Assembly (NCBI GenBank): GCA_020072805.1
Contig: JAIQGC010000014.1
Location: forward strand, 1-48,205
Reading direction: 5' to 3'
Length of the DNA: 48,205 nt
DNA from: Terriglobia bacterium
GTDB lineage: Bacteria; Acidobacteriota; Terriglobia; Acidiferrales; UBA7541
A program made the position numbers and the translations under genes. The notes beneath the pieces are model-generated. The model saw nothing but the letters and a program-made list of their open reading frames with translations, did not search any database and had not been told where the DNA came from. The first letter of the stretch is position 1. The number at the start of each line of letters is the position of its first letter. Positions 2,548 through 48,071 of the stretch are shown piece after piece.

Positions 2548-2928
2548 CTATTTTCGCAACCGGAAATGTAGATGGCGATTCAACCCTTCCCGCAGCAATT
2601 TAAATTCAACCGGCTTGGACAGGCAGGCAACGCAGCCCGCACGAAGAATGCGTTCCCTGTCGGCAGCCGTGGCCGCGGCCGTCACCGCAATCACCGGTAT
2701 GCCGCTCAAGTGCGGGTTCCCGCGCATCCAGGAAACCACGGAGAGACCATCCCCGGTCCCCAGATTGATATCCAGCAACACCGCATGTGGAGGCATTTCC
2801 TCGATGGCCGCGAAGCTGCTTTTGAGATCCGCTGTCCCTGCGGCTTCATAGCCTTCCACTTCCAGCCAGTCGCACAGCATCTCCCGGCTCATCGGGTGAT
2901 CTTCCACGACCAGTATGCGTAGCCTCAT
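2548..2928 (-). CDS. Single-domain response regulator (receiver only)
   Basis: A 126-residue receiver domain with no output domain. The acidic pocket (E9, D10), the phospho-acceptor D53, T83 and K105 are all present. It starts 3 nt after the stop of the hybrid kinase, with GGGAG overlapping the kinase stop region, so the two genes are translationally close and almost certainly co-transcribed. Likely role: a diffusible phosphoryl acceptor, or a CheY/Spo0F-type relay partner of the upstream kinase. Confidence 0.9.
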   Translation of the reverse strand: MRLRILVVEDHPMSREMLCDWLEVEGYEAAGTADLKSSFAAIEEMPPHAVLLDINLGTGDGLSVVSWMRGNPHLSGIPVIAVTAAATAADRERILRAGCVACLSKPVEFKLLREGLNRHLHFRLRK

Positions 2929-2931
2929 GAT

Positions 2932-6264
<3,333 letters not shown>

Positions 6265-6304
6265 GGTTGCACCAGCCTTCTTGGGCCGCCTCGCGAGATC
6301 CCTC

Positions 6305-7288
6305 TCATGCCGTCTGAACGAACAGCTGATCTTGCAGCACGCCCTCGAATTCATTGATGATGGATTCATCCCACCATCCGCGCTTGGCTTCCTCGCGCAT
6401 GATGCCCAGGGCGTCTTGCGGAGACAGGGCCTGGCGATAGGGCCGGTTCGTGGAGAGGGCGTCGTAGATGTCCACGACTTGCAAGATGCGCGCCGTCACG
6501 GGAATGGCGGCCCCGCGCAGGCCGTCGGGATAGCCGCTTCCGTCCTGCTTTTCGTGATGATGGCGGATGATGGGCAGCACATGGCGGAAGGATTTCAAGG
6601 GCGCGCAGATGCGCTCTCCCACGATGGTGTGCTGCTGCATGACGGTTCGCTCCTCCAGCGTCAGCGGCCCCGGCTTGAGCAGGATGGATTCGGGTACGGC
6701 TACCTTTCCGATGTCGTGGACCGTCGCGCCCCGGCGCAGGGCCACCTGCAACTCCTCGGACAGACCCAGACGTTCCGCCAGAGCCATCGAATAGCTTGCG
6801 AGCCGCTTGCAATGCCCGTCGGTGTAGGGGTCTTTCCCTTCAATGCTCAGCGCCAGGCTGAACAAAACCGATTCGGCGCTCTCCAGTTCGTCGGTAAAAT
6901 GCTTGATGCGCAGCAGCGAGTGCACCCGGGCCAGCAGTTCTTCCTTGCTCACCGGCTTTTTCAGGAAGTCGTCCGCGCCGCATTCGATGCCGTGAATGCG
7001 GTCCTTGGCGCTGTGCAACCCGGTCACCAGCACCACCGGGATCAGCCGCGTTTCCGGCATGGCTTTCATTGCCTGGCAGACATCGAAGCCGCTGGCCCGG
7101 GGCATGACCACGTCCAGCAGGGCCAGATCCACGCGCTGGCCTCGCAACGCATCGAGCGCCTCCTGCCCATCCTCCGCGCAAGCCACGGAATAGCCCTCGG
7201 CTCGGAGCAGTGTCTCCAGCAGGTCGCGACTGGCCTCGCTGTCGTCCGCAACAAGAATGTTGGGGCTGTCGTTTTCATGCTCGCGCAT
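6305..7288 (-). CDS. HD-GYP response regulator (RpfG-like c-di-GMP phosphodiesterase)
   Basis: A 327-residue protein: receiver domain with phospho-Asp D59 and K111, then an HD-GYP hydrolase domain. The catalytic HD is at 191-192 (HDIGK) and the HHxxxxxGSGYP signature at about 244-254, so it should be an active c-di-GMP phosphodiesterase. A GAGGAAGAG stretch precedes the ATG. It is the first gene of a three-gene operon (HD-GYP, hybrid kinase, receiver). A GTAC-centred motif lies about 65 bp upstream. Inferred role: lowers c-di-GMP in response to the kinase, acting against PilZ-dependent outputs. Confidence 0.93.
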   Translation of the reverse strand: MREHENDSPNILVADDSEASRDLLETLLRAEGYSVACAEDGQEALDALRGQRVDLALLDVVMPRASGFDVCQAMKAMPETRLIPVVLVTGLHSAKDRIHGIECGADDFLKKPVSKEELLARVHSLLRIKHFTDELESAESVLFSLALSIEGKDPYTDGHCKRLASYSMALAERLGLSEELQVALRRGATVHDIGKVAVPESILLKPGPLTLEERTVMQQHTIVGERICAPLKSFRHVLPIIRHHHEKQDGSGYPDGLRGAAIPVTARILQVVDIYDALSTNRPYRQALSPQDALGIMREEAKRGWWDESIINEFEGVLQDQLFVQTA

Positions 7289-25359: not shown

Positions 25360-25974
25360 TTACGTGCCGGAGCCGGATTCCGCTTCGGAATCGCGGATGT
25401 CGGCATCGGCCTGCTTGCCGGCTGTCTTGGCTTCGCTCTTGCCATTGGCCTGCGGATCGAGGGCCTGGATGGAACTGCCCAGGCTCAGTTTTTTCGATCC
25501 TGTTCCCGCCGGACAACTCGTCCCGGCCGCGGGAGCCTGGCCGGTCATGTCCGCCTTGAGACAATCGAAGGAAATGTTGCGGTTATGGCTGACGTGGATG
25601 GCGGCGATGCATTGCCCCAGGTTCTTGAACCCGGCGCAGGCCGTTTTCAAGTCCGTGCCCTTGGGCAGCAAGCCCTGGGACTGCAGCTTGGAGGTCAGCG
25701 TGCTGTCCAGCTTCGTGTTGTGGCTCAGCACATTGGTGGGAGAACTGGCCGCCGAGTGATTGCCGCCACCATATCCGCCCGCGTTGCCCATCGAACCGTG
25801 CGCGGACCCGGCTGCTCCGGCGCCTCCGCCCATGCCCGCGCCGCCCGGCATGCCTGTGCCGCCCGGGCCGCCGCCGGGATGGTTGCCGGACTGGCCGTGC
25901 TGGGCCAGAGCGGGCGTCGCGCCCAACCACAGAATTACCAGCAGTGCCGCTGCAATTGCGATCGTACGTTTCAT
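25360..25974 (-). CDS. Exported Gly-rich protein of unknown function
   Basis: A 204-residue protein with a clear signal peptide (about residues 1-25, ending PALAQ), a Gly/Ala/Met-rich low-complexity region (about 28-70), then a more ordered part with three to four Cys and conserved-looking IAAIHVSHN. AGGAGG precedes the ATG at 25974. It follows the barrel-like protein gene by about 60 nt on the same strand, so they may be co-transcribed. I do not recognise the family; proteins with this layout are frequent in Acidobacteria. Confidence 0.7.
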   Translation of the reverse strand: MKRTIAIAAALLVILWLGATPALAQHGQSGNHPGGGPGGTGMPGGAGMGGGAGAAGSAHGSMGNAGGYGGGNHSAASSPTNVLSHNTKLDSTLTSKLQSQGLLPKGTDLKTACAGFKNLGQCIAAIHVSHNRNISFDCLKADMTGQAPAAGTSCPAGTGSKKLSLGSSIQALDPQANGKSEAKTAGKQADADIRDSEAESGSGT

Positions 25975-32397: not shown

Positions 32398-32525
32398 GCA
32401 GGTCCCCATCCGTGGCAATCCCCCGGCCAAAATAATTCCGCCCGGCTGTAACCATTCTTCATTTCCGTACGTCACAATAAGCAGAATAGGTTTTTTCCAA
32501 CCCGCATGACGTCGAGGTGTTTGGT

Positions 32526-32891
32526 ATGGTCAATCGCAGACTATTTCGCCCAGGTTTTCCCGAGCCCAAGGAGCCCATGCCCGGCCGCCCTGCTCACGGC
32601 GGTCCCATACCGAGCAAAAAGCCCGCTCCTCCGGAAGTCACCCACGCGGAAAACTACTACTGGGTCAAGCAGATGCAGTCCCATCTGCCCATGTGCATCG
32701 TCCTGATGGACGGAGAAACTCTCCACGGCACCATCGAATGGTACGACCGCGACTGCATCAAGCTCACCCGCACCGGCAGCCCCAACCTGCTTATCTTCAA
32801 GCGCGCCATCAAGTACCTCTATAAAGAAGGCGAAGACGGCGCAGCGGCGGATACCGGCGATAGCGACGAAGACAAAATCGGCAATATTTAA
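32526..32891 (+). CDS. hfq: Hfq-like Sm-fold RNA-binding protein
   Basis: A 121-residue protein whose residues about 43-100 form an Hfq/Sm core: helix (YYWVKQMQ), Sm1 strands (LPMCIVLMDGETLHGTIEWYDRD region) and Sm2 (LLIFKRAIKYLYK). The usual YKHA of Hfq is FKRA here. A proline-rich, basic extension of about 42 residues precedes the core and a short acidic tail follows. ATG 32526 is preferred to GTG 32517 because GAGG lies 8 nt before the ATG. Hfq matches small RNAs with mRNAs; a possible small RNA lies at about 46.5 kb. The family call is good, but the atypical Sm2 should be noted. Confidence 0.8.
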   Translation: MVNRRLFRPGFPEPKEPMPGRPAHGGPIPSKKPAPPEVTHAENYYWVKQMQSHLPMCIVLMDGETLHGTIEWYDRDCIKLTRTGSPNLLIFKRAIKYLYKEGEDGAAADTGDSDEDKIGNI

Positions 32892-44215: not shown

Positions 44216-44548
44216 ATGAAACTGGCGGAAACGTATTCCATGTCCGGTCCCAGCCGCGTGGAGATATCCGGATGGGATATGGACGAGTTGTTTTTTGTGG
44301 AGAAGGCGGAGGTTGATTGGGATGAGTCAGCGGAAAATATCCGCATTCGAATGAACCGGCCGCTGCGCAAGGGGACGCTGATTTTCCTGCGCCAGATACA
44401 GCCGGTCATGAGCGGTCAGACCCATCCGGTGGCGTACTCGGTGGAGCCGGTATGTGCCGACGAGAGCGGGGCCTGCGAATACCAGCTAAAGCCGCTGCGC
44501 AGCCGGATGAGATCCTATACGCTGGAGGAGGCGAAGGGGATTCACTGA
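44216..44548 (+). CDS. Small protein of unknown function
   Basis: A 110-residue soluble, acidic N-terminal/basic C-terminal protein with an excellent AGGAGG before its ATG, so it is probably real. There is no signal peptide or TM helix. A beta-rich middle (IRIRMNRPLRKGTLIFLRQIQ) recalls part of a PilZ-like barrel, but the RxxxR and DxSxxG motifs are absent, so I do not assign it. It is followed by a hairpin with a T-run, and then by the sigma-54 promoter of the NtrC-type gene. Confidence 0.65.
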   Translation: MKLAETYSMSGPSRVEISGWDMDELFFVEKAEVDWDESAENIRIRMNRPLRKGTLIFLRQIQPVMSGQTHPVAYSVEPVCADESGACEYQLKPLRSRMRSYTLEEAKGIH

Positions 44549-44814: not shown

Positions 44815-44829
44815 TGGCACAGTCCTTGC
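44815..44829 (+). promoter_or_regulatory. Sigma-54 promoter of the NtrC-type regulator
   Basis: TTGGCAC-AGTCC-TTGC: the -24 GG (44816-44817) and -12 GC (44828-44829) have the exact spacing and near-perfect sequence of sigma-54 promoters. The predicted start is about 44841, one base before the ATG at 44842. Confidence 0.75.
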
Positions 44830-44841
44830 CTATGAAATGAT

Positions 44842-46272
44842 ATGACTACCACAGCCCACAAGGTAGCGACATCAGCCGCTGCCACACAAACCCTGTCACC
44901 CTGCATCCTGGATGATGATCCGACCCAGCTGGATGTGCTGTCCGCGCAAATCAGCCGCATGGGCTATGAGGCGATAGCCACGGCGGACCCGCAAGAGGCT
45001 CTGGAATTGATCCATCACGGGAGATCGCGGTTCATTCTGGCGGACATCCACATGCCGGGAATGGACGGGTTGGCGTTTCTGGATCAGGCGCTGCGCATCG
45101 ATCCCGGCGTGCATGTGATCCTGACCACAGGAGACTACTCGCTGGAATCGGCAGTGGAGGCCATCCGGCGCGGTGCGTATGACTTCCTGCCCAAGCCGAT
45201 CGATTACGCGCGGCTGAAAAAGACATTGGATGAAGCGGCGGTGCTCTTTGACCAGCGGAAAAGGGTGCGGGAGCTGGAGGAGCAACTGCTGAAGGACCAT
45301 GAGTTTCACGGGATCGTGGGAAAAAGTCCGGCGATGCTGGAGGTGTTTGATCTGGCGCGCAAGGTGGCCAAGCACTACAACAACGTCTTGCTGGTGGGAG
45401 CGACCGGAACGGGCAAGGAACTAGTGGCGCATGCGCTGCATCAGTTGAGTCCGGTGAGCCAGCAGAGGATGGCGGTGTGCAACTGCTCGGCGATGGTGGA
45501 CACGCTGCTGGAAAGCCAGCTGTTCGGACACGTGCGCGGGGCGTTCACGGGAGCCACGGACACCCGGCCGGGGCTGTTCGAATACGCCAATGGGGGCACG
45601 GTGTTTCTGGACGAGGTGGGAGAAACGTCGCTGGCGATGCAGGCCAAGCTGTTGCGGGTGATTCAGAACCGGGAGATCCAGCGGGTGGGGTCGCCGGAGG
45701 TGCGCCAGGTGACGGTGCGCATGATCGCGGCGACGAACCGGGATTTGCGGGCGGAAGTGCTCGCCGGGCGGTTCCGCGAGGATCTTTTCTACCGGCTGAG
45801 TTCGATTCAGATTCGCATTCCGTCGCTGAGCGCGCGGCTCGAGGATATTCCGCTGCTGATGCAATTTTTTCTGAAGAAATACAACGAGGCCTATGGGAAG
45901 CAGATCGCCGGGCTGACGCGGCGGGCGCAGACGATTCTGCTGCAGCATTCCTGGCCGGGAAACGTGCGCGAACTGGAAAACGTGATTTCCAGCGCGTGCA
46001 TCACGGCCACGGGGGAATTCATCGATATCGCGGACCTGCCCGAACAGTTGCAGAAGCCCGAGGCCAAGCAGGCGGACCGGGAAAACTGGCGGCCGCTTTC
46101 GCTCGACGAGGTGCGGAGGGTGCACATCCAGCGGGTGCTGGACATGTGCCAGGGGAACCGGCTGCGGGCGGCGCAGATCCTGGGAATCGGGCGCACCAGC
46201 CTGTACCGCTATCTGAAACGGGACACTTTCCTCGGTCACCATGGCCTGAGGGCGGGCGGAGCCATCTCCTGA
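44842..46272 (+). CDS. NtrC-family sigma-54-dependent response regulator
   Basis: A 476-residue regulator in three domains. A receiver with phospho-Asp D68 ([11 protein letters not shown]) and K about 116. A sigma-54 activator AAA+ domain with Walker A GATGTGKE (about 186), GAFTGA at 233-238, and the later [11 protein letters not shown] motif. A C-terminal Fis-type helix-turn-helix ([20 protein letters not shown]). All motifs needed to activate sigma-54 RNA polymerase are intact. No partner kinase is adjacent. Its own upstream region has a sigma-54 promoter, so positive autoregulation is possible. There is no Shine-Dalgarno before the ATG, which fits a leaderless message. Confidence 0.93.
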
Positions 46273-46434
46273 ACATCGGAAAGTTGCTGCCGCACGCCGC
46301 GAAGCCCTCGCTCGGCTGAAATCGGACCAATTCCGGTCTGAAAATGGACGACATGGCCCAGTTAGGATAAATCCATGGCGGCGGATGGTCCCGGTGCTGT
46401 GCCGCGGTGGGACAGATTCCCGACTTGCAGCAGT

Positions 46435-46455
46435 GCCGCGCGGGGCGGCTTTTTT
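46435..46455 (+). terminator. Intrinsic terminator downstream of the NtrC-type gene
   Basis: GCCGC-GCGGG-GCGGC followed at once by TTTTTT (46450-46455). A classic rho-independent signal, which would end the regulator transcript and separate it from the sigma-54 promoter 40 nt further on. Confidence 0.8.
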
Positions 46456-46492
46456 AAATCCTTCCCTTGCCGCAACTTCTCGGCGTGCCGAC

Positions 46493-46508
46493 TGGCACGA
46501 GCAATGCA
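46493..46508 (+). promoter_or_regulatory. Second sigma-54 promoter
   Basis: CTGGCACG-AGCA-ATGCA: the -24 element is a full match to YTGGCACG, and GC (46506-46507) is at the right spacing from GG (46494-46495); one mismatch in the -12 element (ATGC for TTGC). The predicted start is about 46519. Confidence 0.6.
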
Positions 46509-46518
46509 ATGGAGAAGT

Positions 46519-46768
46519 GCGACTGCGAAAGAAGAATTGCAGTCACTCAAGAGAAGAGCAGCAAGGAATTAAAGAAACCTCAGAAAAGGACGAACCGAGC
46601 GGCGCGAGAAATGCACGAAAGATTCAGGAGCGGAACGAATCCTGACTTTCGAAAGCAGCCCCACAGACGGCGCCGGACAGTAAAACGAGCTTCCACGCAA
46701 ACCTAAACCAGCCCGCCAGACTCCTCAAAAGCGCCGCGTAACAATCCCCTGACTGTTGCGCGGCGCTT
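46519..46768 (+). ncRNA. Candidate sigma-54-dependent small RNA
   Basis: About 250 nt from the predicted sigma-54 start to a 15-bp hairpin (46729-46743 with 46754-46768, one wobble pair). The stretch is purine-rich with A-rich segments (around 46569-46600 and 46680-46710) and contains a small GACTGC/GCAGTC hairpin near its 5' end. The only frame of any size begins upstream of the predicted start. No known RNA family is recognised; a short protein cannot be excluded. The terminal hairpin lacks a T-tract. Confidence 0.3.
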
Positions 46769-46817
46769 CTCCATCTGGATGTGAAATACGAAGTTGCGGA
46801 TATGAAAGAAACTAACG

Positions 46818-46926: not shown

Positions 46927-47631
46927 TTAGCGCGCTGGAAGGGACAGGCGGTTGTCATTGCTGGCGACGGTGACCGGGACGGTGACGGTGGTGTCAACGC
47001 GGACGAGCAGGCCGGTCTGCGCGGGAAGTTCAACTTCCCTGCCTTTGCGGGCGACGATGTAGACGGCGCTGCCGGCAATGCCCAGGCCCATGCCTTTCAT
47101 GGCCGTGCCGAAGATGGCGCCGGCCAGAGTGCCGCCGCCCGCTCCGATGGCGCCGGCGGTGACGTCGCCCTTGACGTCATGGCGGGCCTGCAGAACCTGC
47201 CCTTCGATGATGCGGATATCGCGGCGAGGTTTGCCGCTGGAGTCGCCAGCGGACTGGCCGTGGGGCTTTTCAATGGCCAGAATGCTCATGCGCACGGGAA
47301 CCAGGCGGCTATCCACTTCGATGGAACGGAAAGCGAGATTGAGATAGGCCTGACCGCGAAAAAGGGAAAAGCGGCGGGGCTTGCCCACGGTGCCGATGAC
47401 GCCGTGCACTCGGGTGCCGGCGGGAAGAAGCAGTTGCGGCCCTAGGAAGACGGGTTCGACCACCACGGCGATGAAGGGATCGCCGTCGCGAGCGCCGGAG
47501 GTGCCCACGGGATTGAGCAGGGAGAGATGCACCTGGGTGCCCTGCAAAACCTGATGAGGCTCGGCGCGCAGAGAGGGAGAAACAAGGACGGAAAGAGCAA
47601 CGAGAGCGAGAACGGACGAAAAAACTTTCAT
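46927..47631 (-). CDS. Exported protein of unknown function
   Basis: A 234-residue protein with a signal peptide (about residues 1-23), a beta-rich part (GTQVHLSLLNPV ... LLPAGTRVHGVIG) that resembles the SH3/barrel-like 'conjugation TrbI-type' surface of many acidobacterial envelope proteins, then a Gly/Ala-rich helical hairpin (about 160-195: GAIGAGGGTLAGAIFG) that could sit in a membrane. AGGAGG precedes the ATG. I do not recognise the family with confidence. It is divergent from ffs. Confidence 0.75.
   Translation of the reverse strand: MKVFSSVLALVALSVLVSPSLRAEPHQVLQGTQVHLSLLNPVGTSGARDGDPFIAVVVEPVFLGPQLLLPAGTRVHGVIGTVGKPRRFSLFRGQAYLNLAFRSIEVDSRLVPVRMSILAIEKPHGQSAGDSSGKPRRDIRIIEGQVLQARHDVKGDVTAGAIGAGGGTLAGAIFGTAMKGMGLGIAGSAVYIVARKGREVELPAQTGLLVRVDTTVTVPVTVASNDNRLSLPAR

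Positions 47632-47967: not shown

Positions 47968-48071
<104 letters not shown>

Follow-up and report, generated by a model that had tools for sequence, protein, structure and literature searches.

A putative sigma-54-dependent small RNA behind an NtrC-type regulator gene in one genus of Acidobacteria, possibly derived from a PilZ gene

The window, a 48,205-nt stretch of contig JAIQGC010000014.1 from a Terriglobia bacterium of an uncultured soil lineage, carries on its plus strand a gene for an NtrC-type sigma-54 activator (44842–46272; Pfam Response_reg, Sigma54_activat, and HTH_8), which combines a receiver domain, an AAA+ domain with a GAFTGA loop, and a Fis-type helix-turn-helix. Read by eye, the protein keeps the acidic pair, Asp, Thr, and Lys of the receiver as well as the GAFTGA loop, residues that we take to be functional in their respective domains. 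A sigma-54 site (TGGCACAGTCCTTGCC, 10/12 match) lies at 44815–44830 on the same strand, and 31 of the 38 orthologs examined have a sigma-54-like site (at least 8/12) just before the regulator start, aligning as TGGCAC..TTGCC; judged from these sites, the regulator gene is probably autoregulated. The expected transcription start would fall at or next to the regulator ATG, so that the regulator mRNA may be almost leaderless. The spacing from this promoter to the ATG (44815–44842 in the window) is similar in several orthologs. RpoN matched once in the genome of the window, and no kinase-like gene was seen by eye directly beside the regulator in the window. Upstream of the regulator is a small PilZ-like gene, designated A (44216–44548, plus strand, 110 aa), which by itself has no Pfam match and, by eye, lacks the RxxxR motif. 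Of 61 genomes, 24 have a regulator ortholog with 70% identity or more, and genome G026 has a further fragment at a contig edge.

Directly downstream of this regulator (46273–46768), the original prediction had placed an intrinsic terminator, a near-consensus sigma-54 promoter, and then about 250 nt lacking any supported gene and closed by a strong hairpin; each of these was found on the plus strand, and the Pfam domains agree with the NtrC-type regulator that it had named. The terminator-like element consists of a stem (46435–46449) and TTTTTT, spans to 46455, and probably marks where the regulator mRNA ends; taken alone it is not beyond chance, with 2 such sites in 2.5 kb against 2.3 in shuffled sequence (terminator scan). 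The promoter of the putative RNA (TGGCACGAGCAATGCA, 46493–46508) agrees with 11 of the 12 specified positions of the sigma-54 consensus TGGCACGNNNNTTGCW, in which GG and GC were required. No other site in the window, on either strand, scores 11/12, and in related loci 739 kb of strand contains 8 sites of this type, the true ones counted. Two overlapping plus-strand frames tested in the gene-free stretch gave no Pfam match. The putative small RNA would run from about 46519, 12 nt after the −12 element, to 46768 (~250 nt), both ends being deduced. Its conserved 3′ module (46674–46776), delimited by alignments and a covariance model, consists of a C-rich stretch (GCCAGACTCCTC in the window), a hairpin, and a pyrimidine-rich tail. 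The hairpin (46729–46768) has a 15-bp stem and a folding energy of −27.6 kcal/mol and is terminator-like, with no T run 3′ of it, and the gene beyond it (46927–47631) is convergent to the putative RNA. On the other side, 95 bp before the promoter, an alignment of 26 copies revealed a dyad, TGTGCC-N5-GGGACA followed by GATTCCCGACTTGCAGCAG (46398–46433, plus strand), which is probably an upstream activating sequence.

The promoter-RNA unit stands beyond chance because it is conserved in relatives. In 16 of 24 regulator loci, TGKC-N8-TGCA lies 108–343 nt past the regulator stop codon and is followed by the same type of hairpin, which ends 182–303 nt from the promoter start. From these 16 regulator-adjacent copies, including that of the window, we aligned 105 nt of the 3′ end and built a covariance model (R1). 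Strong matches (E < 1e-8) were found once per genome in 26 of the 36 members of the window's genus, its own genome counted, and in no genome of another genus (61 genomes searched); 16 of these copies match by construction, and 10 are independent of model building. Outside the genus but within the same order, none of 59 genomes (95 genomes in total) had a match at E ≤ 0.001, both searches having been run with stricter filters that lose some weak matches. Rfam 15 gave no match above its gathering thresholds over the RNA of the window or over the copies in 20 of the 26 loci, and the matches to RNA copies at E ≤ 1 were far below threshold.

The RNA and the regulator tend to occur together. A strong RNA copy was found in 21 of the 24 genus members with the regulator (the G026 fragment counted) versus 5 of the 12 without it (Fisher p = 0.007, uncorrected for common descent), and the three genomes in which the regulator was present and a strong copy was missed (G002, G005, and G026) are 82–86% complete. 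Five of the 10 further copies (G019, G020, G023, G034, and G035) lie on the regulator's contig, about 4–21 kb off; the other five (G014, G015, G017, G024, and G032) are in genomes in which no close full regulator ortholog was found. Among the latter, G015, G017, G024, and G032 keep both RNA and promoter with no intact close regulator found, which counts against a simple link to the regulator. By eye, remnants of the regulator are visible upstream of the intact RNA and promoter in G015 and G024 (loci L136 and L142), and in G032 and G017 (L134 and L144) the RNA follows an apparent M50 peptidase gene, which in the window precedes the regulator locus. Two genomes without the regulator, G025 and G029, have weak RNA traces (L148 and L149), for which no promoter was found.

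The predicted promoter also held up in relatives: TGKC-N8-TGC is kept upstream of 25 of the 26 RNA copies (that of G014 lacks it), the sites having been chosen by score, and a similar, somewhat stricter pattern, TGGC-N8-TGCA, is present in 3.9% of random 300-nt stretches of related loci. A loose form of the dyad, KGTnYC...RnRCM, starts 91–99 bp before the promoter in 24 of the 25 promoter-bearing copies, against a chance of 0.6% for a start in a random 9-bp stretch, and in most copies it is followed by TTCCCG.yTGA.GCA. Thus, the two elements expected of an enhancer-dependent sigma-54 small RNA, a conserved GG-N10-GC and an activator-type site, were found in 25/26 and 24/25 copies, respectively. 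Promoter and dyad travel with the detached RNA copies, and 9 of the 10 copies away from an intact regulator gene keep the promoter. Many copies have CAA-N4-TTGAA between dyad and promoter (not clear in the window), an element that presumably resembles an IHF site. In the window's own genome, a strict enhancer pattern matched the RNA site and one site at 25501 inside a predicted reading frame (control count, 1).

The surroundings of these copies bear on a reading of the stretch as the leader of the next gene, a riboswitch or attenuator that ends in the hairpin. The hairpin does stand at the end, and a rough ORF call put the next frame on the same strand in 9 of 25 loci, but in 16 of the 25, the window included, it is on the opposite strand, and the relocated copies lie in other surroundings. 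Given the convergent neighbors in 16 of 25 loci, the leader reading was rejected, and we regard it as extremely improbable.

The copies vary in length, from 151 to 277 nt between the expected start and the hairpin end, and the way they vary argues for a non-coding RNA. In 14 comparisons between related copies, 54 of the 59 internal gaps, and 37 of the 41 before the hairpin, were not multiples of 3 (end gaps left out; about two thirds would be expected for unconstrained gap lengths). A small protein, either a fast-evolving PilZ remnant or a new microprotein, would require a frame: some copies (e.g., L018, L019, L024, and L136) have ATG frames of 48–61 codons, and the closest ungapped pair, L014 and L015, shows no gap over 284 nt, so that a frame may exist there. 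However, 15 of the 26 copies have no ATG frame longer than 20 codons, the open frames differ between copies, and a profile search in six frames detected no PilZ signal in the 16 regulator-adjacent RNA loci. A conserved coding frame over the stretch would have contradicted the prediction of a small RNA, and none is shared among the copies; the peptide reading was rejected on this ground, and we consider a small protein quite unlikely.

Conservation is concentrated at the 3′ end. The 3′ module has a mean pairwise identity of 60% over 107 columns, and the 60 nt after the promoter have 27%, which is the chance level (ungapped comparison of copies longer than 190 nt). Beside the hairpin, a loose pattern found GCCAGAAyCCyC in 24 of 26 copies; that of the window fails the pattern. 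Compensatory changes in the hairpin, which had been named as a check on the prediction, were detected: of 260 cells, 94.6% remain paired, and in 16 both sides have changed; none of 500 shuffles reached either value, in an alignment that was fitted to the model and hence favors structure. Two of the five covariation measures were weaker: 10 shuffles out of 500 reached one of them, and 53 the other. From these sequence comparisons, the stretch very probably encodes a conserved sigma-54 non-coding RNA.

What occupies the same place in more distant relatives points to a possible origin of this RNA. A contig scan for the regulator yielded 37 orthologs of 64–84% identity (L043–L079; acidobacterial by record title in all cases except one), 20 of them already in the set and 17 new; one of the scanned loci, L056 (CAJCHZ010000101.1), is acidobacterial in a record titled Betaproteobacteria, a title that is probably wrong. 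Behind the regulator, 12 of the 17 further orthologs have a frame for a small PilZ-type protein. When eight of these proteins were searched against Pfam, six were over the PilZ cut-off, that of L058 was just under it, and that of L057 had no match. A profile was built from 11 of the proteins, which match it by construction; L061, outside the profile set, matches at E 8.6e-32. A sigma-54-like site precedes the PilZ gene in L057, L058, L061, L073, and L075. The gene in L061 (3619–3954) is truncated, and L058 has two tandem PilZ genes behind the regulator (6555–6953 and downstream); both might be intermediate states.

A quick-method regulator tree grouped the RNA-type genomes into a single clade of 23 rows, in two of which no RNA was found (SH-aLRT 99), with L057, L058, L059, L061, and L065 as its sister clade (99), L065 being a bad row. 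The PilZ types lie around both clades, with support of 88–94 for the deeper branches, and the PilZ gene is therefore likelier to be the older state. Moreover, R1, which was built from RNA copies only, matches the PilZ stop codon, 3′ UTR, and terminator in L057 (E 2.1e-4), L058 (E 3.6e-3), and, weakly, L061 (E 0.25), and these are its three best plus-strand matches outside the RNA copies (48 loci, 488 kb). All three read ATAGCCTGCC at the PilZ stop codon, where some RNA copies keep TAGCC. In the sister-clade loci L059 and L065, neither a PilZ gene nor the 3′ module was found. On the basis of the tree and the 3′-end match, we consider it reasonably probable that the putative RNA arose from the mRNA of a PilZ gene. 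A series for small RNA origin would then run from PilZ genes in the further orthologs, through PilZ genes with an RNA-like 3′ end in the sister clade (truncated in L061), to an RNA without a frame in the window's genus.

Within the genus, traces of PilZ genes are scattered. The PilZ profile gave weak matches in two of the ten detached loci only (L136 and L141), both outside the RNA, and of the 36 genus members G006 alone gave a near match to the L067 PilZ protein (E < 1e-10), at another position. In G034 and G035 (L025 and L026), a PilZ-like frame of a different type (E 7e-7) follows the regulator at a distance of about 1 kb, so PilZ-type genes are present at some loci of the genus, and G020 has a PilZ-like fragment behind the regulator (E 0.045); in all three genomes the RNA is located elsewhere than this frame, in G034 and G035 4 kb away. 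The idea that the PilZ gene had moved upstream and become gene A was rejected because gene A is upstream in PilZ-type genomes too. By profile search of nearby ORFs, gene A has a strong match upstream of the regulator in 14 of the 24 loci L013–L036 (weak in L033) and in 13 of the 17 further orthologs. Overall, 27 of 41 orthologs have gene A before the regulator.

An ancestry of this kind raises the prospect that the stretch is a decaying PilZ pseudogene with no present function. The traces in G025 and G029, for which no promoter was found, and the promoter-less copy in G014 would suit such decay, but the promoter persists in nearly all copies and the dyad likewise, relocated copies among them, the 3′ module is conserved while the remainder drifts, and the hairpin shows compensatory changes. 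We therefore hold a pseudogene to be very unlikely. A more far-reaching scenario is a change of gene product at this locus, with RNA replacing protein: in one genus, a PilZ (c-di-GMP-type) gene under sigma-54/NtrC control would have lost its frame, and selection would have preserved its enhancer, promoter, and 3′ end in the form of a trans-acting RNA, which would now carry the output of the regulator and would since have been relocated within the genome as one block. We put this scenario just short of an even chance.

Taken as a whole, our reading (probability roughly 0.6) is that of a stand-alone, enhancer-dependent sigma-54 small RNA of about 150–280 nt, which would derive from a PilZ mRNA with a lost frame and pair with mRNAs. 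The ancestor of the window's genus would have lost the PilZ frame and retained promoter, enhancer, and 3′ end. The regulator, itself probably expressed from a sigma-54 promoter, would bind the TGTnCC...GGnACA-type dyad ~95 bp upstream and activate sigma-54 polymerase at the observed TGGC-N8-TGCA site; the non-coding RNA thus made would end at the conserved hairpin. It may then act in trans via its C-rich 3′ part, GCCAGAAyCCyC, which is complementary to G-rich sequence of the ribosome-binding type and resembles a seed that could pair with G-rich start regions. Pairing with mRNAs would be the most likely form of trans action, a mechanism that we offer tentatively and at clearly less than even odds.

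Target searches were carried out with this segment. Its complement, GRGGRTTCTGGC, had 123 matches in 26 genomes, 14 of these matches being the RNA genes; the reversed control had 55. We examined 100 of the 109 other matches, all except five from G033, three from G021, and one from G032, and 80 of the 100 lie inside a same-strand open frame of at least 150 codons; GRGGRTTCTGGC spells Gly-Ile-Leu-Ala in one reading frame, which may explain the excess of matches. By eye, no orthologous start region recurred among the 100, and no pairing signal emerged in 16 loci when the RNA was compared with the start regions of two genes, the regulator and an upstream ORF (mean z, −0.09 and 0.13). That these mRNA searches found no target, together with the short conserved motif adjoining the hairpin, would fit a decoy or scaffold for an RNA-binding protein other than Hfq, which would use the C-rich segment and hairpin instead of pairing with mRNA. 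Decoy RNAs usually repeat their motif, however, and here GCCAGAAyCCyC is a single element and there is no candidate protein; we rate this explanation as unlikely.

The original prediction had proposed a CrcZ-like small RNA. In cbrB-crcZ of Pseudomonas and Azotobacter, the regulator gene is followed by the RNA gene, and RNAs of the CrcZ type carry several A-rich (AANAANAA) Hfq/Crc sites. The layout itself proved real, with a sigma-54 promoter and an upstream dyad before the conserved stretch and 16 copies directly behind an NtrC-type regulator; the suggestion of an unrelated system with that layout stands to this extent, but the layout has another ancestry, in that further orthologs have a PilZ-type gene at this place. 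The Hfq-like gene reported at 32.5 kb was also recovered (32517–32891; PF21979, E 1.1e-8; PF17209, E 2e-6). As for the A-rich segments, the window copy is indeed 33% A and has one AANAANAA and four (ARN)3 motifs, but what is conserved is the C-rich part and the hairpin. Gene order, promoter, dyad, the Hfq-like protein, and this composition would all suit an RNA that soaks up Hfq through A-rich motifs while the regulator is active. Across the 26 copies of the family, however, four have a single AANAANAA and the other 22 have none, and (ARN)3 is present in 11. The predicted sequestration of Hfq is thus not borne out; a CrcZ-type Hfq/Crc decoy, which calls for several such sites, was rejected by motif, and we give this explanation very little weight.

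Other sigma-54 RNAs and mRNA-derived RNAs differ from the present one in several respects. The Qrr RNAs of Vibrio are sigma-54 RNAs driven by the NtrC-type LuxO, with one copy beside the regulator; they number several per genome, depend on Hfq, and have U-rich terminators, whereas here there is one strong copy and no T run. In 3′-UTR-derived small RNAs, a conserved mRNA 3′ end with its terminator acts as a regulatory RNA; here, by contrast, the preceding coding sequence is gone in a genus-level group and a promoter is kept. The nearest known layouts are CbrB-CrcZ and GlmY-QseF (PMC6296734, PMC6075780, PMC8745638, and PMC3162934). The NtrC-type activator CbrB drives the sigma-54 RNA CrcZ from upstream sites, using three non-palindromic subsites and IHF (PMC6296734). 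Shared with that system is an NtrC-type regulator gene followed by a sigma-54 RNA; different are the dyad seen here, the lack of a set of A-rich Hfq sites and of an Rfam match, the phylum, and the PilZ ancestry. GlmY of Enterobacteriaceae is a sigma-54 small RNA activated via upstream sites by QseF from the same operon region (PMC6075780 and PMC8745638). It likewise pairs a sigma-54 small RNA with a response regulator of the same region, but glmY precedes the qseEGF genes, and our locus has no Rfam match and no adjacent kinase-like gene that could be seen. No report of such an RNA was found in the open-licence papers searched. Few regulatory RNAs are annotated for Acidobacteria; a table in one review lists four distinct annotated small RNAs (PMC9029176). 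The putative RNA comes with a likely controlling protein, a promoter, and relatives, which makes it testable.

Elsewhere in the window, a second PilZ gene lies at 1876–2208 (PF07238, E 7.8e-8), and near it, with 2548–6369 included, stand an apparent response regulator gene and a long frame that resembles a kinase. At 47972–48070 the window encodes the bacterial small SRP RNA (RF00169), followed by the apparent start of dnaX, and among 20 loci that have an RNA copy, three likewise contain an SRP RNA.
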